DNA of 37,639 nucleotides from a virus, in the IMG/VR virus record IMGVR_UViG_3300046812_000362, positions 1 through 37,639 of that record. One strand, 5' to 3'. Positions within the stretch are counted from its first letter, which is position 1. Each line of letters opens with the position of its first letter. Positions 6,028-37,406 of this stretch are shown here, piece after piece. The notes under the pieces were generated by a model that did no database searches, was not told where the DNA came from, and worked only from the letters and a program-made list of their open reading frames with translations. A program made the position numbers and the translations under genes.

Positions 6028-6302
6028 TGGAAAGCACGCAATCACGCCGCACCGCGACCACCGCGGCACCGGCAACCCCGGAAACCGAGCGGCGGCTCGA
6101 CGCCAAGGCATTCAAAGAGGAAACCGACCGGCAGATTGCCGAGCGGATATCCTCCCCGCCGGAACAGCCGACGCCGACGCAGGCCGAGGCTAATGCGATC
6201 AAATCGGGCGAGGCAGTGCCGCCAGGCGAAGCCAGAAGCGGGGCGGCGCAAGAGCGGGATGTAAAGCCGGGCACCTCGGGCACGGGATACACCACGCGAT
6301 GA
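6024..6302 (+). CDS. Small disordered virion-associated protein
   Basis: 92 residues starting in an ATGATG that overlaps the previous stop. No cysteine and no hydrophobic core are visible; it is rich in Ala, Glu, Thr, Pro and Gly and is predicted disordered by eye. It shares a short motif with the upstream Ig-like protein: PTPTQAEANAIKSGE here versus PQPTQARADAIKEKT there. This suggests that both carry the same docking segment. Overlaps on both sides (ATGA with the next gene) place it in the head operon. No function can be assigned. Confidence 0.7.
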   Translation: MMESTQSRRTATTAAPATPETERRLDAKAFKEETDRQIAERISSPPEQPTPTQAEANAIKSGEAVPPGEARSGAAQERDVKPGTSGTGYTTR

Positions 6303-6712
6303 TCGCGCGGGCGCTGCTGGCGGCGACGCTGTTACTGCTGCTGCCAGGCGCGGCGGCGGCGCAGAAGATGTGCGACCAGGTCCGGACCAACCTGACGACG
6401 GCGCCCTCGGCGATAAGCGCCAAAGTGCCCGGGAAACCGAACCAACGGATTTATCTCTGCGGCTATATGATTGTCCGCAACGGATCGGCGGCCGGGCAGG
6501 ATTTGCAATTCGAGATATCATCCGGCTCCGGCGTCAACTGCGCTACCGGCAAGACCATTATCCTGCCGAAGATGGCGATTCCATCGAGTGGCGAACTGGT
6601 TAATCGCATTCCATATACCGCGGAAAAGACAGGCCCAGGGGAGTCGGTCTGTCTGGAGGTTTTCGGGTCCGGAACTTCTCTGGTCTCCAGCTTTTACTGG
6701 ACGCAGTTCTAG
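6299..6712 (+). CDS. Secreted protein with Sec signal peptide
   Basis: 137 residues. A clear Sec signal peptide is present: Arg at position 4, a leucine/alanine core and an AAAA-QK cleavage region near residue 22. The mature part is about 115 residues, beta-rich in appearance, with four cysteines (MCDQV, YLCGY, NCATG, VCLEV) that could form two disulfides in the periplasm. Starts with an ATGA overlap and ends one base into the portal start, so it is translationally tied to the head genes. Similar short exported proteins occur near tail genes of rhizobial prophages, but the role is unknown. A secreted protein in the head-assembly operon is unexpected. Confidence 0.78.
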   Translation: MIARALLAATLLLLLPGAAAAQKMCDQVRTNLTTAPSAISAKVPGKPNQRIYLCGYMIVRNGSAAGQDLQFEISSGSGVNCATGKTIILPKMAIPSSGELVNRIPYTAEKTGPGESVCLEVFGSGTSLVSSFYWTQF

Positions 6713-8112
6713 TGGCGAACTGGCTCACCCGCGTGCTCGGTTGGGGCGCGGCGTCGGTGCCTGAAGGCGCGGTGCGGCCGGGGCCATATTTTCTGTCGAA
6801 TGGTTGGCTGCCGGCCGGGAGCCCGTGGAACTACTGGCAATCCGGCCAGAACGTGCGCCCCTACGGCGGGCCGAGCGCCATGCTGGAAGCCTGCATCAGC
6901 GCCTATGCGCAAACCGTGCCGATGTGCAGCGGCGACCACTGGCGCCGGCTCGATAACGGTGGCAGGGAGCGGGTGACCAACTCGGCATTGTCGCGCATCA
7001 TGCGGCACCCGAATGAGTATCAATCGATCTCCGATTTCTTGCTGAATTTGACGCGGCGGTTGTACGAGTGTGGCAACGCCTATGCGGTGGCGCTGCGGAA
7101 CGCCCGAGCCGAGATCACCGAGCTTCACCTGATGCAAAACGGCGCCGCGATGGTTGCCGAGGATGGCAGCATCTTTTATTCGCTGTCGGGCAACGAAATT
7201 ATCGAGCGACGGCTCAATTTGCCTCTGTCCCTGCCGGGTCTCACTAATTTATCGCTGCCCGTGCCGGGTCGCGACGTGCTGCACGTTCGCCTTCATACGC
7301 CGCGGCATCCGCTGAAGGGTGAGTCGCCGATCCTGGCGGCGCAGCTTGATTTGGCGATGTCGGGCGCGGCGCTGAACCAGCAAGTTCAATTCTACGTCAA
7401 CCAAAGCCGGCCGAGCTTTCTGCTGACCACCGATGTCGTGATGAAGCGCGAGCAGGCGCAAGAACTACGCGCATGGTGGAACGAGCAATCGCAGAGCGAG
7501 AACGTCGGCGGCACACCGATCCTGACGAGCGGGCTGAAGGCGCAGCCGGTGCAGACGAGCGCGGTAGACTCCCAACTGGTCGAATCGCTGAAGATGAACG
7601 ACCAGAACATTGCGCTGGCGCTGCGCATCCCACTGCAAATGCTCGGCATCGGAAATTCGACATTCTCCAGCACCGAATTGCTCATGCAGCAGTGGGTCGC
7701 GACTGGGCTCGGGTTCACGCTGAATCACATCGAAGAAGCATTCGGGCTGCTGTTCGGTTTGCGCGGCGTGCCCGACGAATATCTTGAGCTCGACACTCGC
7801 GCCTTGCTGCGCTCGGCCTATCGTGAGCGCATCGAGGGGTTGGCGCGCGGCGTCATCTCGGGCATCTACAGTCCCGACGAGGCGCGGGCGCAGGAAGACC
7901 TTCCAGCCGTGCCGGGCGGGCACGGCGCCGAACCGAGGGTTCAACAACAGGTCGTCCCGCTGAGTTACGGCAGCGAGATGCAACCGCCATCGCCCCAGCC
8001 GGCGACCCCGCCCCCGCAGGACACGCCGCCATCTGATAATGCCGATGCCACCGCCAGCGAACTCGCTTCGTTCCGCGCTGCGTATGACGAACACCGCCGC
8101 CTTGCCGCGTGA
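6712..8112 (+). CDS. Portal protein
   Basis: 466 residues, the expected length for an HK97-type portal, the dodecameric ring at the capsid vertex through which DNA passes. Typical features: [25 protein letters not shown] near the N-terminus, [22 protein letters not shown], and the [19 protein letters not shown] and [14 protein letters not shown] region that is very characteristic of the family. The last 60 residues are proline-rich. The GTG start overlaps the preceding TAG by one base. It lies three genes downstream of the capsid, whereas in most HK97-type phages the portal lies between terminase and protease. Confidence 0.93.
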
Positions 8113-8932
8113 CCGGCTGGCAGCGGAGCTCGGCTCCGTTGTCGGCATTCTGGAGCGGGAGTTGCGGTTGCAGATGGCGGCGATGCTGGCCGAGGCGCGG
8201 CAGGAGATCGAAGCGCTGCGGGCGTGGCGCGCCGAAGCGGCGTTGCAGCTTGCCTCGCTGGTTGGCCCTGCCGGGCCGCAGGGCGAGCGCGGGGAGAGGG
8301 GAGAGCCCGGCGGGGCTGTCGTGGGCCCGCCCGGCGAACAAGGCATTCCAGGGCCGCCGGGCGAGAGCATTGAAGGCCCGCCCGGACCACAGGGGCCGCC
8401 CGGCGAGAGCATTGAGGGGGCTGTGGGTCCGCGCGGCGAGGCTGGCCCGCCTGGTAAGTTTGCCGCACCAAAAGCATGGCAGCGCGGCGTGCATTACGAG
8501 AGTGATCTCGTCACTCATGCCGGTTCGAGTTGGTGCGCTATGCGGGACACCGCCGAAGAACCGCCGCACGAGGATTGGTGCTGCGTTGCCGAGCGCGGCG
8601 CCGATGGGCGCACACCCACGTTTCGAGGCGCCTGGAAGGCCGCCAGCGCATATCGAGCGCTCGATGTGGTGATGTGTGACGGGAGTTCATTTGTCGCGCT
8701 GTGCGAGGCGCCAGGGGCGTGTCCCGGTGCCAATTGGCGATTGCTGGCCGCCCACGGCAAATCCGGCCCGCCCGGCGCACCGGGCCCACAAGGCGAGCGC
8801 GGCTACCCCGGCATGCCGGGAGTCTCGCCGGCAGCGCTCGAGGTCGACGGCGAGGGACTGTTGACGCTGCGCCTCGGCGACGGCACCCGGCTCGCTTGCG
8901 ACTTATATCCGGTGCTGGCGAAGCTGCGATGA
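8084..8932 (+). CDS. Collagen-like adhesin with carbohydrate-binding-like modules
   Basis: About 282 residues. An N-terminal amphipathic helix ([20 protein letters not shown]) probably trimerises. Then come about 20 Gly-X-Y triplets (such as [14 protein letters not shown] and [15 protein letters not shown]), with two IE insertions after GES. The middle contains two related W/Y modules, [20 protein letters not shown] and [20 protein letters not shown], with the pattern of CBM5/12 (chitin-binding type) domains. A second short collagen run ([19 protein letters not shown]) precedes a C-terminal cap. ATG 8084 overlaps the portal gene by 29 bases; TTG 8102 is an alternative. A fibre on the head or neck that sticks to glycans is inferred. 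Confidence 0.82.
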
Positions 8933-9579
8933 GGCACGGCTATCGCATAACGCGGGTCGTGACTCCGGCCGCGAGCATGGCGCTCGTCAGCCTCGATGAT
9001 GCGAAGACCGCGCTCGGCATCGACGCCGGCGACACCTCCCAGGATGCAACGCTGACGGCGCAGATCGAGGCAACCTCGATGGCGATCAACAATTACTGTG
9101 ATCGCATCTTCGTCGTGCAGACCTACCGCGACCAGTTGCGCGATGCGTATGGCACGTATGGCGAGCCGCTGGTGACCCGGCAATACCCGATCATGATCGA
9201 TGACAGCGGGGTGCCGGTGGTGGCGGTCACGGAGGGCGGCGCGGCACTCGATGCGGCGCTGTTGGAAGTGTTCCCCGAGGGGGGCGCGATCTACCGGCTT
9301 GATGCAGCGCTGGTGCCGAGTGCATGGGGTGCAGCGCTGGTGACCGTGGAATACGCGGCCGGCTTCGACCCGATCCCGGCCGACGTGCAGGGCGCCTGCC
9401 TCGAATGGCTGACGGTGCGGTGGTTTGCGGTGGGGCGCGACCCGGCGTTGCGGTCGGAGACGGTCCCCGACTTGATCAGTCAGGTTTATGCGGGCGACGC
9501 CGGTGCCGGCACCAGCGGCGGCGCCATCCCGCCCGGCGCTCGCGACATGCTGGCGCCTTACAAGATCTGGTCGGTATGA
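8929..9579 (+). CDS. Head-tail connector (gp6/gp8-like adaptor)
   Basis: 216 residues starting in an ATGA overlap. The N-terminus ([20 protein letters not shown], then [16 protein letters not shown]) and the late stretch [22 protein letters not shown] are typical of the HK97 gp6 / phiE125 gp8 connector family, which forms the ring below the portal. It is followed by the closure and tail-completion genes in the order expected for siphoviruses. Family assignment is from pattern recognition and gene order. Confidence 0.85.
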
Positions 9580-14410: not shown

Positions 14411-17145
14411 TGCCGGGTCCCTTCTATTTCGCGTGGGCTGGCGGCACCATCACCGAGCAGCAGACGCTCGTCGTCAACGGCAACACGCACGGCGGCCTGG
14501 TCGAAACGATAACCCTGGTCGGCGATACCGAGGCAGGAATCCCCTCGCTCCTCAACATCGCCAGCAGCAGCGGGCTGGAAGCCGGCGCCTTGTACACGAT
14601 CGCCGGGCCGGGCTTAGAGGATGGCACGTTCTTCATCTACGACGTCTCGGTCCTGACGGAAGCAGGGTCGATCAACCTCAGCGATCCGGCAAGCGGCACG
14701 GTCAACAACGCGACGTTTGTGGCGACCAAATCGATATTGATCGGCTCCACGGCGGCGTCGATGACCCAGGGGTCGCATTTCCTGACCTTGGTCGACGACA
14801 TCGGGTTATTGCCGGGATTGTACTGCGTCTCGGGCACCAGCATCGGCGAGACGGCGTCGCCGGCGAGCGATACCGAGACGATTTTCGTCAGCACCGCCTG
14901 GGTTTCCTACGACGGCGGCGGCGTATTTGCCATGTATGTCTTCGGCCCCGGCGGGGCTCAGCCGGTGACGGCAACCTCGACCGGGACTTATGCAATCCGC
15001 ATCACCGGAATGCCGACGGCCGATTGGTACAGCGTCACGAGCATTCCTGCGGGGGCGTTGGCCGGATTGATCCCCGGCTTGCGGTACAACATCGCGGGCA
15101 ATGGCATTCAAGTCGGCACGACCTTTCTCGCCGAGAGTGGCGCGACGACGATCGATCTCGACCTGCCCGCCAGCTCCACAAGTATCAATGCCATCCTGAC
15201 GATTACCGGGCCGAGGACGCCAAACGCCGATTTCGACCCTGCCGTCCACAACCGGGAAGACGAACAGATCGTCAGCCTGGAGATCAGCCAGGAAGAAGGC
15301 GGCTTTGCGACGCTGACCATCGACATTCGCAATCCGAATATCGGATTGCTGGCGTTTGGCCGAAACCTCTGGTGCTGGCTGTCCTGGGATCAAGCATGGA
15401 CACCGGAGGGGAGCAGCGCGCCCGACCTCGTCCCGTTGTTTAACGGCCGATTGATCGGCGTTCCCACGCTTTCGGTCGGCGAGATTGTGCAGCTGCAATT
15501 TCTCGCGCGCCCCGACGACTTCAATGCACAGAAGGACGCGCTCGTCTCGGACATGAGCGTGCTGCCGTATTACGATCCGATCTGGCTCGCCGCGAACGTC
15601 AACCCCGACACCGTGCTGGAGACGTATTCGTCGCTCTGGCATATCGACCGCGCCAGCCTCGTATTGACGGCGAGCGACATCCTGCAAGGCGAAGCCGGCG
15701 TCATCAGCGTCGGTGAAGACGTCGCGTTCTACGATAGCTTCAGTCTTTCTTATGGGTCGGCGCCGCTCACCGCAATCACGCTATCCGGCACGGTAAGCTG
15801 GAACCAACAGGGCGAAGGCGCGCTCGACATCACTCAGACGATTATTGATGCGTTTGCCGCCGGCGGCAGCCCATACAAATCTGCCTTCGGCTTGTACCTT
15901 CCGCCGCGCGACCCGGCACGCGGTAAGCCGCCCGCCAATGCCGGCGGGCTTATTACCTGCATCTGCGGCGACGGGCTGCGCACCGATTGGCCGAAGCCGG
16001 GCACCAGCATCGGCGGCGGCTGGTCGCTTTCGAGCGACAACGATGGCGCCGGGTCGCCGCTGTGCTATTGCATCGACGCCGTGCAGCCGAACGGGTGGAT
16101 GCAAGCGCAAACCTACAACGTCAAATATGCCGGCCAATCAACCGCCGACACGACGGGCATGACCAGCGATCAGGCGGATGTCGCCGTGATCACCGAGCCT
16201 TATGGTCAGTACACTGCCCGCTTTCCGATCAATATCTACAAGATTCAGATGGTGCTGGATTGGAAAGCGGATCGGCCGCGCACCGAAACCGTCACAGCGG
16301 TTTTGACGGCCAACGTCCAGCGGGAGCTGTCTGACACCGCCGACAGCGATCGCGAAGATATGTCCTACAGTTCCGAATATATCGACAAGGGCATCGATCC
16401 CGGCGGCGAAGTGCCGCTCGGCAGCATCTCCCGCCGGTCATACTTTCAAACCGACCGCGGGGCGGCGTCTTTTGAATACCTGCTATTGGCGGCGCGGGCG
16501 AAGATGCGGGCGCGGGCGCGCTCGGTCGATATCACCTTTGGCGTCGATTGGTACACGGCGCTCGGTATCACACTGCGGCACAGCGTCATCTATCTTGATC
16601 GGCGGCTGCCTGACGGTGCCGCTACAGGCAAAGTCAAGAGCTACAAACTGACCGCCGGCGAGACGATGGCCGGCGAGTTCACCATCGGATGCGCGATCGG
16701 CAACGACGATTTGTCGAGCGCCGCCGAGGGCGTGCTGTCTTATGTCGAGGCCGATTACGTCGATCCCGGCTATCAAGTCATCGTCGGCGGTCAAAAGATG
16801 CTGCTCGATCAGGAACTGGCCTATGAGACGTTGGACAATTTTGTGATCGACGACGACAACCTAGACCTCACCAACATGACCGTGGATCGTGCGGTCAACG
16901 AATGCGTCGTGATCAATGGGTTGACCTCGCAGCTCGATACGCTGTCGGCTTACCAACGCCTGGTGGCGCCGACCGCGAGCGACCCGATCAGCGCGATGAA
17001 AACCGCGACGACGGCAGTCACCCTCGACCTGAAGCCGGTCGCCGGCAATTCATTTCACACGACCTTCTTCCCCGCCGTCTCTCAGCTCTGGTTGCCGAAA
17101 ACCATCGACCTCGCAGCTTCGTCGGGCCGACGCCATGCCGTTTGA
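14410..17145 (+). CDS. Large tail hub / baseplate protein
   Basis: 911 residues. The first 270 are Gly/Ser/Thr-rich beta repeats (three related segments around GLEAGALYTIAGPGLEDGTF, GLLPGLYCVSG and GLIPGLRYNIAGNGIQVGTT). From about residue 275 the protein resembles a hub: NREDEQIVSLEISQEEGGF, NIGLLAFGRNLWCWLSWD, LFNGRLIGVPTLSVGEIVQL and later GVDWYTALGITLRHSVIYLD. Size, place after the tape measure, and content fit the tail tip hub that anchors fibres. No peptidase or lysozyme motif was seen. It overlaps the next gene by 11 bases. Confidence 0.8.
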   Translation: MPGPFYFAWAGGTITEQQTLVVNGNTHGGLVETITLVGDTEAGIPSLLNIASSSGLEAGALYTIAGPGLEDGTFFIYDVSVLTEAGSINLSDPASGTVNNATFVATKSILIGSTAASMTQGSHFLTLVDDIGLLPGLYCVSGTSIGETASPASDTETIFVSTAWVSYDGGGVFAMYVFGPGGAQPVTATSTGTYAIRITGMPTADWYSVTSIPAGALAGLIPGLRYNIAGNGIQVGTTFLAESGATTIDLDLPASSTSINAILTITGPRTPNADFDPAVHNREDEQIVSLEISQEEGGFATLTIDIRNPNIGLLAFGRNLWCWLSWDQAWTPEGSSAPDLVPLFNGRLIGVPTLSVGEIVQLQFLARPDDFNAQKDALVSDMSVLPYYDPIWLAANVNPDTVLETYSSLWHIDRASLVLTASDILQGEAGVISVGEDVAFYDSFSLSYGSAPLTAITLSGTVSWNQQGEGALDITQTIIDAFAAGGSPYKSAFGLYLPPRDPARGKPPANAGGLITCICGDGLRTDWPKPGTSIGGGWSLSSDNDGAGSPLCYCIDAVQPNGWMQAQTYNVKYAGQSTADTTGMTSDQADVAVITEPYGQYTARFPINIYKIQMVLDWKADRPRTETVTAVLTANVQRELSDTADSDREDMSYSSEYIDKGIDPGGEVPLGSISRRSYFQTDRGAASFEYLLLAARAKMRARARSVDITFGVDWYTALGITLRHSVIYLDRRLPDGAATGKVKSYKLTAGETMAGEFTIGCAIGNDDLSSAAEGVLSYVEADYVDPGYQVIVGGQKMLLDQELAYETLDNFVIDDDNLDLTNMTVDRAVNECVVINGLTSQLDTLSAYQRLVAPTASDPISAMKTATTAVTLDLKPVAGNSFHTTFFPAVSQLWLPKTIDLAASSGRRHAV

Positions 17146-17710
17146 ATATGCCGTCCGGCCGTTTGAGACGCGGGATAGTCACGGCCGAGTCATCATCCCG
17201 GCGAGCCCGTCTGGTTTCGAGCGCGCGACCCTGACTTGGGGCGCTAAGACAACCGTCAATCAGGTTCAACTAGACCAGGAGGGCACTAACGTCGAGTGCT
17301 GCACCGACACGCGGACGCAGAATCAGGCGGACAAAGCGTTTGCCGGACAATTTATACAACAGGTTTGGGGACCGGGGACGGGCGGCCCGCCGCTGCCACA
17401 TGGACAATGGGGCGCTAGCGTTGAAACCAAGCGAAGTATAGGCGTTTCATTGAAGGTGAAAGAGACGAATAGCTGCGCCAATGATTGGGCGCAGATGTCG
17501 TTCGTTGCTTCGGCTGTGGATGCGGCCTTTGCTGATCTTAAAACCGACATCGAAGCCGGTGGCGCGGGCAAGACGGTGGATCATTGCAAGGCGAGAATCA
17601 ATTCGGTCGAAACTGAGGCCTGGGAATTTAAGGGCGACCCAGCAGGAAAGTTTCCGCAAACGGTTCCGGCCTTTCCGCCGCCCGGCCTTACCGGATCGGC
17701 GCCGGCTTAA
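17135..17710 (+). CDS. Tail-tip cassette paralogue 1 of 3
   Basis: 191 residues, first of three tandem paralogues. Shared start: MPFEYAVRPFETRDSHGRVI, then PSGFERATLTWGAK. Shared frame of cysteines: a CC pair (NVECC), a Cys before DWAQMSFVASAVDAAF, and DHC near the end. Between the first two anchors it has a long unique insert (from TDTRTQNQ to GVSLKVKETNS), and a proline-rich tail after DHC that the other copies lack. Function unknown; location between hub and fibre suggests a tail-tip or adsorption role. A variable centre inside conserved edges would suit target binding. Confidence 0.78.
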   Translation: MPFEYAVRPFETRDSHGRVIIPASPSGFERATLTWGAKTTVNQVQLDQEGTNVECCTDTRTQNQADKAFAGQFIQQVWGPGTGGPPLPHGQWGASVETKRSIGVSLKVKETNSCANDWAQMSFVASAVDAAFADLKTDIEAGGAGKTVDHCKARINSVETEAWEFKGDPAGKFPQTVPAFPPPGLTGSAPA

Positions 17711-18156
17711 TGCCCTTCGAGTATTTTGTCAGGCCCTTCCAATCCGCCGACTCACACGGCCGCGTCATCCTGCCTTCAACGCCGTCGGGGTTCGAGCGCG
17801 CGACCCTGACCTGGGGCGCCAAGGTTGCCGGTTTGCCGGAACCGGAAAGGACCGGCCCTAACGTCAATTGTTGCGGGGAACAGTTGGACGAACATCAACG
17901 GCTTGGCGAAGTGCATAAGATCGTGTCTACCGAGTCTCCCGGTTTGTTCATTCTGGAACATCGTGCCGCCGAAGTCAGGCTCAAAAAGAAAAAGCAGGAT
18001 AAATGCGCAGGCGATTGGACGCAGATGTCATACGTTGCTTCGGCGGTGGAAAGCGCGTTCGCCGGTCTTGAGGCTGACATCGAGGCCGGCGGCGCCGGGG
18101 CAGATGTAGACCACTGCAAGACAATGGTTATGCACCTCAACACAGAGTTTAAATAA
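17710..18156 (+). CDS. Tail-tip cassette paralogue 2 of 3
   Basis: 148 residues, TAATG coupling to copy 1. Nearly the same first 45 residues as copy 3 (MPFEYFVRPFQSADSHGRVI, then PSTPSGFERATLTWGAKVAG). It keeps CC, C-x-x-DWTQMSYVASAVESAF and DHC. The central insert (from GEQLDEHQRLGE to VRLKKKKQDK) differs from both neighbours and is charged. High likeness to copy 3 at the DNA level suggests a recent duplication. Function unknown. Confidence 0.8.
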   Translation: MPFEYFVRPFQSADSHGRVILPSTPSGFERATLTWGAKVAGLPEPERTGPNVNCCGEQLDEHQRLGEVHKIVSTESPGLFILEHRAAEVRLKKKKQDKCAGDWTQMSYVASAVESAFAGLEADIEAGGAGADVDHCKTMVMHLNTEFK

Positions 18157-18620
18157 TGCCGTTCGAGTATTTTGTCCGCCCGTTTCAATCTGCCGACTCA
18201 CACGGTCGAGTCATTATTCCGTCGACGCCATCGGGATACGAGCGGGCGACTTTGACGTGGGGCGCTAAGGTCGCCGGCCTGCCGGCGCCGGAACAAGGCG
18301 GCACCAACGTCGATTGTTGCAGCGAACACCTGGACGAGCTCGACCGAAAAAGCGACAGGGTCACCATCGTCGACCCGACGACGCCGGAAAATTACCTCGT
18401 GGTGGACCGCGCGATAGCGGTGAAATTGAGGAAGCGAAAGGACGACCAGTGCGCAGGAGATTGGTCGCAAATGTCGTATGTCGCGTCAGCAGTGGAAAGT
18501 GCCTTCGCCGATCTTGAATCCGATATTACGGCTGGCGGGACGGGCGGAAAGATTGATCACTGCCACCAGATTTTGCATTTGACTCCGAACACCGTGTCGC
18601 CGTCGGCCGACAAGCCATGA
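18156..18620 (+). CDS. Tail-tip cassette paralogue 3 of 3
   Basis: 154 residues, TAATG coupling to copy 2. Same conserved edges and cysteines as copy 2 (CC at NVDCC, C before DWSQMSYVASAVESAF, DHC). The centre (SEHLDELDRKSDR to VKLRKRKDDQ) is again different. A short tail follows DHC. The gene ends four bases into the next start (ATGA). The three copies could assemble as a hetero-complex or serve as alternative adhesion modules. Confidence 0.8.
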   Translation: MPFEYFVRPFQSADSHGRVIIPSTPSGYERATLTWGAKVAGLPAPEQGGTNVDCCSEHLDELDRKSDRVTIVDPTTPENYLVVDRAIAVKLRKRKDDQCAGDWSQMSYVASAVESAFADLESDITAGGTGGKIDHCHQILHLTPNTVSPSADKP

Positions 18621-28942: not shown

Positions 28943-28987
28943 CTGAAAATCCGTGTGTCGGTGGTTCGAACCCGCCCCTGGGCACCA
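28943..28987 (+). other. attP: attP core: 3' part of tRNA-Phe
   Basis: The 45 bases read as the end of a tRNA: anticodon loop CTGAAAA (28943-28949, anticodon GAA = Phe), 3' anticodon stem TCCGT, variable loop GTGTC, T-arm GGTGG-TTCGAAC-CCGCC (28960-28976), acceptor strand CCTGGGC, discriminator A and CCA (28985-28987). Nothing upstream can form the 5' half, so it is not a tRNA gene. Temperate phages use such fragments to restore the host tRNA on integration. Phage genes on both sides mean the site is unrecombined. Confidence 0.85.
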
Positions 28988-29034
28988 ACTTTTTCAATGA
29001 CTTGCTGGTTGAGATGCATATCAAAGCGGACCTA

Positions 29035-34081: not shown

Positions 34082-34984
34082 GTGTCACAAGCGCCGATGA
34101 TGCCGGTATGGCCCGACGCCCTGATCGGGGACACGCTGCATCTCAGCGCGGAGCAATTCGGCGCCTATCTCCTGCTGCTGTTCGCTACCTGGCGAAACAA
34201 CGGCAAGCCCCTACCCGACGACGACAGAAAACTGGCGCGGATCTGCCGTTGCAGCCTCCCGCATTGGCGTCGCGTGCTGCGCCCGACCGTTATTGAGTTT
34301 TTTCAAATAGATGACGGATTTTTGCATCAGTTACGGCTAGAGTCGGAGTGGAATTTCGTGCTCAAAACGAGGGCCATTCGTACCATTTTCGGATCCGCGG
34401 GTGGTAAAGCTAAGGCACTGAAATCGGCCAATTCGGGTCTAGCAAAAGCTACGGTTTTGCTAGAGAAAAATCCTAGCAAAACTGTAGCAACCCATACCCT
34501 TAAGAAGAAAGAAAGAGAGAGCCTTGAGGATGTTACTGCGCACGCGCGCGTAATAGGCTCGCCCGACACAAAGACAAGGCCCTCTCTCAAGATTTTAGAA
34601 AAGAATCAGGAAAGCGAAGCGGAGCCGCGGCAATCGCTCGGCGACATCCCGGAAGGATGGCTCGCCGACGCCGAAGCGGCCCGCGACGAGGCGCAGCTCG
34701 AACCCGTCAACCTGATGCTCGAGTGGGGCAAGTTCGCCGCCCGCGCCGACGGACCCGTCGAATTGCGCCGCTGGATCGAGTGGAGCCTGCGGGCGTGGGT
34801 CAGCCGCGAACCGAAACCCAAAACCAACGGCTCGCCGCCGACCGAAGCCGTGGCCGAAACCCCGTGGGCCGCCCGTGTGCGGCAATGGCAGCTCGACGGC
34901 TGGTGGCTGCCGAGCTTCGGACCCAAGCCCGGCGAGCCCGGATGCTTCGTGCCGCGGCAGTTTCTCGCGGAGGCCGCGGAATGA
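34082..34984 (+). CDS. DUF1376-type replication protein
   Basis: 300 residues from GTG 34082. The N-terminal 85 residues match the DUF1376 pattern: MPVWPDALIGDTLHLSAEQF, then GAYLLLLFATWRNNGKPLPD, LARICRCSLPHWRRVLRP. This domain is common at the start of phage replication initiators. The middle (about 115-175) is lysine/serine-rich and lower in GC, and its DNA carries an iteron-like cluster. The C-terminus (SLRAWVSREPKPKTNG, WQLDGWWLPSFGPKPG) may recruit host helicase. Organisation recalls lambda O, where the origin lies in the initiator gene. Confidence 0.8.
   Translation: MSQAPMMPVWPDALIGDTLHLSAEQFGAYLLLLFATWRNNGKPLPDDDRKLARICRCSLPHWRRVLRPTVIEFFQIDDGFLHQLRLESEWNFVLKTRAIRTIFGSAGGKAKALKSANSGLAKATVLLEKNPSKTVATHTLKKKERESLEDVTAHARVIGSPDTKTRPSLKILEKNQESEAEPRQSLGDIPEGWLADAEAARDEAQLEPVNLMLEWGKFAARADGPVELRRWIEWSLRAWVSREPKPKTNGSPPTEAVAETPWAARVRQWQLDGWWLPSFGPKPGEPGCFVPRQFLAEAAE
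34430..34525. other. Candidate replication origin inside the DUF1376 gene
   Basis: CTAGCAAAA occurs at 34439-34447 and 34473-34481, and inverted as TTTTGCTAG at 34455-34463; a fourth partial copy, GTAGCAA, is at 34484-34490. The first two form a 10-bp perfect stem (34438-34447 / 34455-34464). A nearly pure purine tract follows (34502-34521). The block is much richer in A and T than its surroundings. Iterons plus AT-rich/polypurine DNA within an initiator gene is the lambda-type origin plan. Confidence 0.5.
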
Positions 34985-35907
34985 AGAACCGCCACGATGA
35001 CCGGCAGCCCTCGCTTTTTGAGCGTGACGAGGATACGTGCAGTGTCCCGGCGCCGCCGAACCGGCTTCCTTTCGATCCAACGAAAATGCGGATAACCGAG
35101 CATGAGGGCGAACCTTGCGTGCTTGATCTGGATCTCGGGCAAGCGCTCGGATACGTCGAGCCCCGACAGATCCGGCAATTGATTCGTCGCTTAAGCGTGC
35201 ACTCTGCGTGGGGGATTTTGTATTACCGTAATACAAAATCCTCTACGCGCGGTCGCCCCGGGATCGACTATCTGCTGACAGAGAAGCAGGTCATCCTGAT
35301 TTGCATGCGATGCGAACTCACAAACATCGAAGAAGTGCAATCGCAGATCGCCGATGTCTTCATAGAGTGGCGGCACGGCCGGCTTCGCCCCATCGACGCT
35401 AAGACTGAAACCAAATTGCTAGACGCAGCCGACCGCGCTCATATCGCTTCGCCAGACGTCATCGAACTACTCGCCAAGCTGGTAGCAAACGATAACGATC
35501 GCAAGCAAGATCTCGCAGATATCAAGCGGTACATTCAACAACAAGACGACGACGAACGAAAGGACTTCTCGAAACAGCAATGCGATCTGTATGCCAGGAC
35601 GCTCGATCGGTTCTATGGCGGCCTCGACCCAGGCGGAGGACAAGTCAAACTGACCGACGGGAAGGGGCATCTGTTGCCACACCCGCTCGTTGAGGTCGAC
35701 CATTACAACGGACTACGTGGCGACAACCGCACGGTGAACGGATGGCCGTTGAGCCCCAATACACACAAGCAAAAGACGGGCGGCGAGAGCTTCAGCGATG
35801 AGAATAGAGTTTTTCTAAAGCGGCTCCGCGCGGTGTTAGAGAGCGAGGCCGACACACAACAAGAACTAAAGTTCTTAGCCGAAACCGATGACGGCGAGGC
35901 ACCATGA
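34981..35907 (+). CDS. Antirepressor-like protein with HNH-like C-terminus
   Basis: 308 residues, ATGA coupling. Residues about 45-135 resemble the Rha/Bro-N-like phage regulatory domain: DLDLGQALGYVEPRQIRQLI, RGRPGIDYLLTEKQVILICM, then QIADVFIEWRHGRL. A helical linker follows (DADRAHIASPDVIELLAKLV-like region, IKRYIQQQDDDERKDF). The C-terminus has PLVEVDHYNGLRGDNRTVNG and PLSPNTHKQKTGG, an HNH-like D-H...N...H order, but without the usual CxxC zinc pairs, so activity is doubtful. Contains a perfect 29-bp palindrome at 35213. Could regulate the switch or act as a DNA-binding nuclease. Confidence 0.72.
   Translation: MKNRHDDRQPSLFERDEDTCSVPAPPNRLPFDPTKMRITEHEGEPCVLDLDLGQALGYVEPRQIRQLIRRLSVHSAWGILYYRNTKSSTRGRPGIDYLLTEKQVILICMRCELTNIEEVQSQIADVFIEWRHGRLRPIDAKTETKLLDAADRAHIASPDVIELLAKLVANDNDRKQDLADIKRYIQQQDDDERKDFSKQQCDLYARTLDRFYGGLDPGGGQVKLTDGKGHLLPHPLVEVDHYNGLRGDNRTVNGWPLSPNTHKQKTGGESFSDENRVFLKRLRAVLESEADTQQELKFLAETDDGEAP
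35213..35241. repeat. Perfect 29-bp palindrome
   Basis: GGATTTTGTATTAC (35213-35226), one central C (35227), and the exact reverse complement GTAATACAAAATCC (35228-35241). It lies inside the coding sequence for LYYRNTKSS of the antirepressor-like protein. No T-run follows on either strand. It is the longest perfect dyad noticed in the window and is AT-rich against a GC-rich background, fitting a protein-binding site or cruciform. Confidence 0.8.
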
Positions 35908-36134
35908 GCCAACCCCGCCGATACCCGCCGGAAGCGCTCGCGCTGTTCGCCGAATACCGCGACCGACGCGAGCCATATCGCCCGATCGAATGCCACAACG
36001 GCAGCCCGTGCTGGGTAGAGGACGGCCCGCCGAGCATTACCAGCGTCAGCCTCGGCAACCGCTGCACCGGCTGCGGTGCCTCACCGCTGGCATTTGGCCG
36101 CCGCCACAGGAGGGATGCTGATGGACCGCTATGA
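35904..36134 (+). CDS. Small cysteine-containing early protein
   Basis: 76 residues, ATGA coupling to the preceding gene. PPEALALFAEYRDRREPYRP, then CHNGSPCW and RCTGCGASPLAFG: two cysteine pairs that could bind one zinc ion. The C-terminus is short and basic. Likely a zinc-ribbon DNA- or protein-binding factor; no family is recognised. Confidence 0.65.
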   Translation: MSQPRRYPPEALALFAEYRDRREPYRPIECHNGSPCWVEDGPPSITSVSLGNRCTGCGASPLAFGRRHRRDADGPL

Positions 36135-36324
36135 CGCCTGGATGCTGCGGATCGAACTCCTGCGCCAGATCCAGCACGCCGCCGGGCTCGATCCCGACGG
36201 CCCGCGGCTGGTGCCGATGCAAGCGCGGCTATCGCGGGAGCAAACCCGGCGAGCGGTGCGCCGGGCCGGCGAGATCGCCGACCGCGACGGGCGGCTGCGG
36301 CGCGCGCTGCGGTTGCTGTGGTGA
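36121..36324 (+). CDS. Small helical early protein
   Basis: 67 residues from ATG 36121, with GGAGGGA at the proper distance (36110-36116). Arginine-rich and helical: DRYDAWMLRIELLRQIQHAA, then LSREQTRRAVRRAGEIADRD. It overlaps the previous gene by 14 bases. Last gene of the plus-strand early operon, convergent with the pilus-like gene. Function unknown. Confidence 0.62.
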   Translation: MDRYDAWMLRIELLRQIQHAAGLDPDGPRLVPMQARLSREQTRRAVRRAGEIADRDGRLRRALRLLW

Positions 36325-36332
36325 TCTCTCGC

Positions 36333-36776
36333 CTAATGCCCCACGGGAACGCTAACAGTCGAGCCCGCCGGCAGATCGGCGATATTTGTTCCCGAGTTCG
36401 TCGGCTCGCCGTGAACCTCGGACCAAATCTGCTCCTTCTGGCCGCGCAGCACCCGCACCGTTCTCGGGCCGGTTACGTTGACCTCGCGGCTCATCGCCAC
36501 TTGGCCGTCGTCCCCCAGAGCGTAGAGAGACGTGCGGCCAGCCTTTTTACCATAAACGTAAATCAGGTTCCTGCCGCCCTGCGTCGGGATTTGAACGTCG
36601 GCAACGTCAGGGTTTGCGACAAACACGTTCCCGAACGGGGTGGCCGTCTGAACCAGCACTCCAGTGCCGGCTCGGGAAATGACAAGCGGCGGCCCGTCAG
36701 GGCGGATTTCATCGGCCACTGCCGGGCCGACGAGCGCGACGAGCAGTGCTGCGGTCGTTAGGATGCGATAAGCCAT
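36333..36776 (-). CDS. Secreted pilus-secretin (CpaC/RcpA) N-terminal-domain protein
   Basis: 147 residues with a Sec signal peptide (MAYRILTTAALLVALVGPAV, cleavage near VADE). The mature part has the pattern of the N-terminal domain of Tad/Flp pilus secretins: PLVISRAGTGVLVQTATPFG, NVFVANPDVADVQI, LIYVYGKKAGRTSLYALGDD. The secretin pore domain that should follow is absent, and no pilus genes are near. It is alone on the minus strand between two plus-strand gene blocks, as expected for a moron expressed in the lysogen. A periplasmic decoy or modifier of the host pilus secretin is inferred; stand-alone copies also occur on bacterial chromosomes. Confidence 0.82.
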   Translation of the reverse strand: MAYRILTTAALLVALVGPAVADEIRPDGPPLVISRAGTGVLVQTATPFGNVFVANPDVADVQIPTQGGRNLIYVYGKKAGRTSLYALGDDGQVAMSREVNVTGPRTVRVLRGQKEQIWSEVHGEPTNSGTNIADLPAGSTVSVPVGH

Positions 36777-36807
36777 GATCGAAATACCTGCGTTCGGTTG
36801 TGGTCAG

Positions 36808-36837
36808 GCGTTGGGCGGGTTACTGCCCGCCTGGCGC
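36808..36837. promoter_or_regulatory. GC-rich hairpin upstream of the secretin-like gene
   Basis: A 12-pair stem with three G-T pairs (36808-36819 with 36826-36837; core GGGCGGG / CCCGCCT) and loop TTACTG. It lies in the 5' region of the minus-strand gene. No T-run on either strand, so an intrinsic terminator is unlikely. May be an mRNA leader structure. Confidence 0.35.
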
Positions 36838-36911
36838 CGCCTTCAACTTGGGCCGCGCTCCGAGCGTGGGCTTGTCATATCCGGCCAAAAACTTGATAGC
36901 GGCGACACGCG

Positions 36912-37406
36912 ATGATGGCTTCTGTCGACGGTCTCCTCCCCGAGCGGTTGCAGCACGACCGGGTGACGCGCGATGCGGCAACGCTCGCCGATGCAGTGGG
37001 CGCCATCGGCATGCCGTGGCGGGTCGAGGGGCTGCTCGGCCGCCTCGAGCGGCACGGTCACATCGGCGCGCGGGAGCGGCACGCTGGCGAGGAGTTCGCC
37101 CGGCTGTTCCAGTTGGCCCATTTGGACCCGCTGCGGGCTGCCGACATCGTGCGCGAAGGCCGCGGCAATGGCGCTGGGCCGCACGGCAGCGAACGGGCAC
37201 GGCGTCGCATCATCGCCGCTATGGACGCGCTCGGTGGGCACGGCAGCCCGTGTGCTACTGCGGCGTGGTTTGTGCTGGGCTGCGAATTGTCGATGCGCGA
37301 ATGGGCGATGCGCGAGGGCTGGGGCGGTCGGCCGTTGCGAGAAGAGGTGGCCAAGGGTACGCTGGTCGGTGCGTTGGGTGTGCTGGCAAAGCACTTCGGC
37401 GTTTGA
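36912..37406 (+). CDS. Candidate late-gene regulator
   Basis: 164 residues (ATGATG start, either codon possible, weak ribosome-binding site). Helical, with RVTRDAATLADAVGAIGMPW, FARLFQLAHLDPLRAADIVR and a C-terminal segment LSMREWAMREGWGGRPLREE, then VAKGTLVGALGVLAKHFGV. The last segment is HTH-like and resembles the DUF6456-type end of proteins found before terminase genes in rhizobial phages. It sits directly before the TTGACA promoter of the packaging block, the position of Q-type regulators. No biochemical role can be read from sequence. Confidence 0.62.
   Translation: MMASVDGLLPERLQHDRVTRDAATLADAVGAIGMPWRVEGLLGRLERHGHIGARERHAGEEFARLFQLAHLDPLRAADIVREGRGNGAGPHGSERARRRIIAAMDALGGHGSPCATAAWFVLGCELSMREWAMREGWGGRPLREEVAKGTLVGALGVLAKHFGV

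Follow-up and report, generated by a model that had tools for sequence, protein, structure and literature searches.

Why does a phage carry a gene for a small exported protein that resembles the N-terminal domain of a pilus secretin? The question was raised by a minus-strand reading frame in IMG/VR virus record IMGVR_UViG_3300046812_000362, the whole of which (37,639 nt, here called the window) was analyzed. Pfam found TerL, prohead protease/capsid, portal, RecT, integrase and DNA methylase genes in it. The features around the reading frame are as follows.

34082–34984, plus strand: DUF1376 gene, left syntenic anchor (PF07120, E=7.8e-21); adjoins the DUF6456-like gene in relative G001
34942–35907, plus strand: antirepressor-like ORF with low GC3, belonging to the extra segment described below; function by sequence reading only
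36333–36776, minus strand: secreted Pil_N-domain gene; signal peptide at about aa 1–21, CpaC-type core at aa 36–102, conserved tail at aa 103–147
36336–36467, minus strand: C-terminal tail of 45 residues (about aa 104–147), a family-wide motif, CpaI-like, without the Cys pair
36780–36796, minus strand: Shine-Dalgarno hairpin (CGAA...TTCG) directly upstream of the start codon; alignment helix 3, folds
36807–36841, minus strand: GC-rich hairpin of the 5' leader; alignment helices 1 and 2
36881–36897, minus strand: conserved upstream box ATCAA-N5-TGGCCGG, putative promoter or operator; sole exact match in the window
36912–37406, plus strand: DUF6456-like gene, right syntenic anchor (PF20057, 22.8 bits, just below the cut-off of 26.3); 88% identical in G001

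The protein and its place in the phage genome

The reading frame encodes a protein of 147 aa with the N-terminus MAYRILTTAALLVALVGPAVA. Its hydrophobic leader ends in PAVA and is followed by DE, which was read by rule as an AxA-type cleavage site; the same rule-based reading found a signal peptide and an AxA-type site in the homologues. PF13629 (T2SS-T3SS_pil_N) matched residues 36–102 with 55.8 bits (E=3.9e-15; gathering score, 23 bits). The secretin pore domain PF00263 was found by Pfam neither in the reading frame, nor elsewhere in the window record, nor in the seven other carrier records. A preliminary description of the locus had proposed just this, a signal peptide and a pilus-secretin N-domain with no pore domain, and had named PF13629 as the model that should match.

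It had also taken the product for an N-domain standing alone. This held with respect to the missing pore, but not to the rest of the protein. Alignments showed a C-terminal motif, TVRV...(I/T/V)WSE(A/V)H...(A/S)DLP(A/T)GS(T/S)V(S/T)(V/M)P.G, in all eight phage proteins. Because they have this CpaI-like tail in common, the window protein is more than a bare N-domain.

The AlphaFold2 models were poor, with mean pLDDT of 42 and 56; in the second, the core reached 62–79 by block and the tail stayed below 50. Foldseek searches with these low-pLDDT models gave no match below E=0.001. PADLOC gave no match.

The gene was confirmed to lie alone on the minus strand between two plus-strand blocks: the early block ends at 36324, and the gene at 36912 opens towards the late block. 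In the relative G001 (locus L085), the DUF1376 and DUF6456-like genes overlap by stop and start, whereas 1.9 kb separates them in the window. Therefore, the window has an extra segment, 34985–36911, that is flanked by phage genes. In carrier L200, homologues of the small window ORFs at 35904 and 36076 come directly after DUF1376, so these two have the look of normal early genes, and what sits between 36324 and 36912 is the Pil_N gene together with the region upstream of it. The Pil_N gene is absent at the G001 junction and has the position of an accessory gene, in keeping with the earlier view of a lysogenic-conversion-type gene.

A host flank as the source of the gene was rejected on the synteny with G001 and the phage genes on both sides, and with these neighbours the gene is not part of a tad/cpa locus. 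The 3' part of a tRNA lies by the integrase at about 28943–28990, in the window and also in L103. It is likely to be the attP core and, by our reading of the anticodon loop, is that of tRNA-Phe. A search for the host with this core matched one genome with one mismatch. TerL-bearing prophages in the genomes reached no more than 61% identity.

Three other features of the window were recorded. An ORF in the structural region (8039–8932, plus strand) has collagen-like Gly-x-y repeats. A second ORF with a signal-peptide-like start (6299–6712, plus strand) lies between the capsid and portal genes and is about 48–52% identical in eight related contigs. Three consecutive tail-module ORFs (17135–18620, plus strand) are related end to end and start with MPFEYAVRPF or MPFEYFVRPF.

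A family of eight phage genes and its ancestry

Full-length homologues were found in seven further phage contigs, by alignment-based scans only, with 54–76% identity to the window protein (L103, 76%; L199, 65%; L198, 64%; L200, 61%; L203, 58%; L202, 55%; L201, 54%). PF13629 matched all seven with 50–62 bits. With the window protein as sole query, scans of viral and genome contigs and a tblastn of GenBank phages found no relative, and a cellular CpaI-like protein as query found no further viral carrier. The gene gave no match over the curated cut-off in 26 phage records with a related TerL.

The carriers have tail-module homologues in common with the window. In the other seven, the Pil_N gene is convergent to the tail operon; in the window it lies at the early/late junction instead. 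It adjoins the integrase gene in L103 and L202 (tblastn), integrase-like ORFs were read in L199 and L201, and in L203 it comes after the RecT operon. Between the window and L103, dN/dS was 0.164/0.959, or about 0.17 (Nei-Gojobori, single pairs only). The phage genes are under purifying selection and, given this ratio and the seven homologues, the window ORF is more than a chance reading frame. The several positions, the purifying selection and the gene's own conserved upstream region make it an accessory (moron) gene. The family is real, and had not been described in the literature searched.

CpaC was the best cellular BLAST hit for all eight phage proteins. Against models built from cellular sequences alone, with no phage sequence, all eight cores scored 67–81 bits with CpaC versus 37–51 bits with CpaI. 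A domain tree on 68 columns, in which two phage proteins were tested (window and L103), placed both inside the CpaC secretins; a group of 21 CpaC and the phage pair, containing no CpaI, had 97% support. The core thus nests in CpaC and does not group with cellular CpaI.

The tail behaved differently from the core. Its addition raised the CpaI-model score of all eight proteins by 2.7–8.1 bits and lowered the CpaC-model score. Shuffled tails equalled the CpaI-model gain in 0–6 of 200 trials; in several of the eight proteins the likeness is modest, with 6/200 shuffles reaching the gain for L103, 3/200 for L199 and 2/200 for L203. On the core scores, the domain tree and the gain from the tail, the phage protein combines a CpaC-type core with a CpaI-like tail.

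In 289 alphaproteobacterial genomes, the matches to the window protein as query were almost all full secretin frames. With a profile built partly on two stand-alone cellular proteins, secreted stand-alone CpaI-like proteins were found in 34 of these genomes, a set that is not wholly independent because the profile also had two phage rows. All 34 have a Cys pair, C-x(3-6)-C, in the tail, which is absent from the phage proteins. For several, the region also encodes a full CpaC. The first two cellular proteins adjoin TadE-like genes, by our reading the CpaI-CpaJ/K layout. A plain CpaI orthologue was rejected for the phage protein on its core ancestry, its best hits to CpaC, the missing Cys pair and the non-tad locus.

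In a recurrent Tad-locus layout (L175, L178, L180, L190, L191, L192 and similar), the cellular CpaI-like gene lies a few kb from a full CpaC and opposite to it. Chromosomal relatives listed from the orders of genomes G308 and G175 were nearly always secretin-sized frames. Some short Pil_N frames in genomes (G172, G174) were dismissed as contig-end truncations.

The upstream box and the RNA leader

All eight carriers had the box ATCAA-N5-TGGCCGG upstream of the gene, L200 with one extra copy, and none of the 188 loci without a match had it. For the window gene there was no match to the sigma-70 consensus and no clear terminator.

In seven of the eight phages, the gene is preceded by a two-hairpin leader of 73 positions that reaches the start codon. 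A covariance model of the leader hit the window at 36774–36842 (minus strand) with 75 bits, the window being among its training sequences. The Shine-Dalgarno hairpin is weak in the window and stronger in most homologues; in its helix 3, 97.3% of cells were paired, and both sides had changed in 4/5 pairs. The leader of the L103 Pil_N gene itself has diverged (21.9 bits), and its Shine-Dalgarno hairpin re-forms with different letters. L103 has a second leader (8941–9014, 46 bits) in front of another secreted ORF, a Cys-rich one of 57 aa by the integrase (9012–9182, plus strand).

Leaders were collected from the window, L103, L198–L203, L204–L208 and L211–L213, and so from both phages and bacterial genomes. 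They have a conserved CCT.ACC.C.ACC-like linker, and their second hairpin contains the Shine-Dalgarno region. Leader matches at E<=0.001 occurred in 7 of the 289 genomes, and most of the better ones had, downstream, a short ORF with a MADSENTRT-like start. The two weakest genome matches (L209 and L210) look like chance. The MADSENTRT-like ORFs were seen downstream of the leader in L204, L207 and L211–L213, and one genome (G042) has four copies of the leader. By eye, TTGAC-like boxes and palindromes lie upstream of the bacterial copies.

Covariation was strong in the 16 sequences assessed. Both sides had changed in 10/14 pairs, and none of 500 shuffles reached any of the measures, in an alignment that was made with a covariance model and so leans towards structure. 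When the partners were slid, the signal was gone. A real structure is likely in view of these slid controls and of the letter changes seen in the bacterial copies. Rfam had no family at the gathering score for the leader. RF00043 reached 35 bits against its gathering score of 55, and was taken as generic hairpin resemblance.

Possible action on the Tad pilus

In Caulobacter, CpaI is a small protein of the periplasm that combines an RcpA-N-like fold with a C-terminal three-strand sheet (PMC13170226); cells were thus already known to have stand-alone Pil_N proteins. It lies beneath CpaC; its tail sheet has been modelled on the CpaC N-domain, and the C-terminal hairpin of CpaB on CpaI (PMC13170226). 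Without CpaI, secretins form but the alignment complex is missing (PMC13170226).

The phage protein, once exported, probably lets the resident phage interfere with host pili. The reading that we rank first, at somewhat short of an even chance, is that this accessory gene of a temperate phage makes a decoy, a mimic of the CpaC N-domain with a CpaI-like tail, that lowers or alters Tad piliation. Assuming a host with a Tad system, the exported product would mimic the periplasmic N-domain of CpaC, the Tad-pilus secretin. In a lysogen, the soluble protein would occupy the interface of CpaC with CpaI or CpaB, and this would break the coupling between the outer-membrane gate and the alignment complex of the inner membrane. 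Tad piliation would then be lowered or altered, and Tad-pilus-dependent phages might be excluded or attachment changed. We infer each step of this chain, from binding through piliation to phage exclusion. Such a binding site may be open to a decoy, since the RcpA N-domain is flexible without partners and was unresolved alone (PMC10499894).

More probable partners are the ring of CpaC N-domains, CpaI and CpaB. The pilotin, also proposed earlier as a target, found no support and is an unlikely partner: CpaO did not fit the Caulobacter machine, in which the partners of the N-domain are CpaI and CpaB (PMC13170226). A fuller version, in which the output of this hybrid decoy of CpaC core and CpaI docking tail would be set by an RNA leader with a ribosome-binding-site hairpin common to other exported phage proteins, is more doubtful.

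The same anatomy would also suit a protein that favours pili. The protein could substitute for CpaI, bridging CpaC and CpaB in hosts without it and boosting or stabilizing lysogen pili or attachment. The CpaI-like tail agrees with this, a clear CpaI is missing from many Tad systems (PMC13170226), and genomes G274 and G175 have a CpaC close to the phage core with no separate CpaI-like match among those listed. We consider it unlikely, however, as the phage core is nearer to CpaC than to CpaI, and the tail lacks the Cys pair of the 34 cellular proteins. It is likewise improbable that the product is a periplasmic conversion protein with no Tad role, acting on another envelope target such as the receptor of a superinfecting phage. 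Superinfection-exclusion proteins do hit many envelope parts (PMC11436027) and no result here points to a particular target, but the kinship with two Tad components is specific.

An action of a VirB9-like fold on a conjugative type IV secretion channel, limiting plasmid transfer, is suggested by the VirB9-like RcpA N-domain (by HMM and fold; PMC10499894), but is very unlikely: the sequence relatives found were CpaC and CpaI only, and Pfam found no VirB9 match in the window protein or its seven phage homologues. That the product is an Ig-like part of the virion or of the lysis system, as suggested by weak matches in single homologues (Big_2, E=0.0055; a holin PHROG, E=0.011) and by a lambda tail tube Ig domain among the insignificant Foldseek matches, is no more credible given the signal peptide, the orientation opposing the late operon, the variable position and the absence, over the curated cut-off, from the 26 related phage records.

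The decoy reading, ranked ahead of a CpaI substitute and of another envelope target, would matter because Tad pili are important adhesive pili of many Alphaproteobacteria. If it is true, the CpaC-CpaI/CpaB bridge, which was not modelled in place until 2026, is open to attack, and the phage protein is a natural inhibitor for probing it.

Pilus-inhibiting phage proteins, CpaI and CpaC were known already; the phage Pil_N family is new as far as searched. The literature searched contained no phage-borne Tad component and no described system of this kind, as the preliminary description had supposed, and phage proteins that turn pili off, known for Pseudomonas type IVa pili, were not found there for Tad pili.

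With the CpaC/RcpA N-domain (PF13629), the likeness is that of the phage core, in the best cellular hits of all eight proteins and the 97% clade. The phage proteins differ in the lack of the secretin pore region, in their conserved tail and in a short insertion in the domain (..TQGGRN..). With CpaI they share a small, secreted, stand-alone domain of the Pil_N/RcpA-N type and a C-terminal tail of similar sequence. On the other hand, the cellular CpaI proteins examined lie in Tad loci, give lower scores with the phage core and, in 34/34 cases, carry C-x(3-6)-C in the tail, whereas the phage proteins have no such pair and are encoded among phage genes.

Like other phage morons, the Pil_N gene is an extra gene against its neighbours' direction, with its own upstream region and a variable position; it differs in the RNA-hairpin leader also found before other genes. 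In proposed purpose, changing host pili and excluding other phages, the nearest comparison is with two phage proteins. Tip of phage D3112 acts on PilB. PfsE inhibits type IV pili via PilC and brings about superinfection exclusion (PMC8764522). These two act on inner-membrane or cytoplasmic parts of the type IVa pilus, whereas the phage Pil_N protein is a putative periplasmic mimic of part of a Tad secretin.
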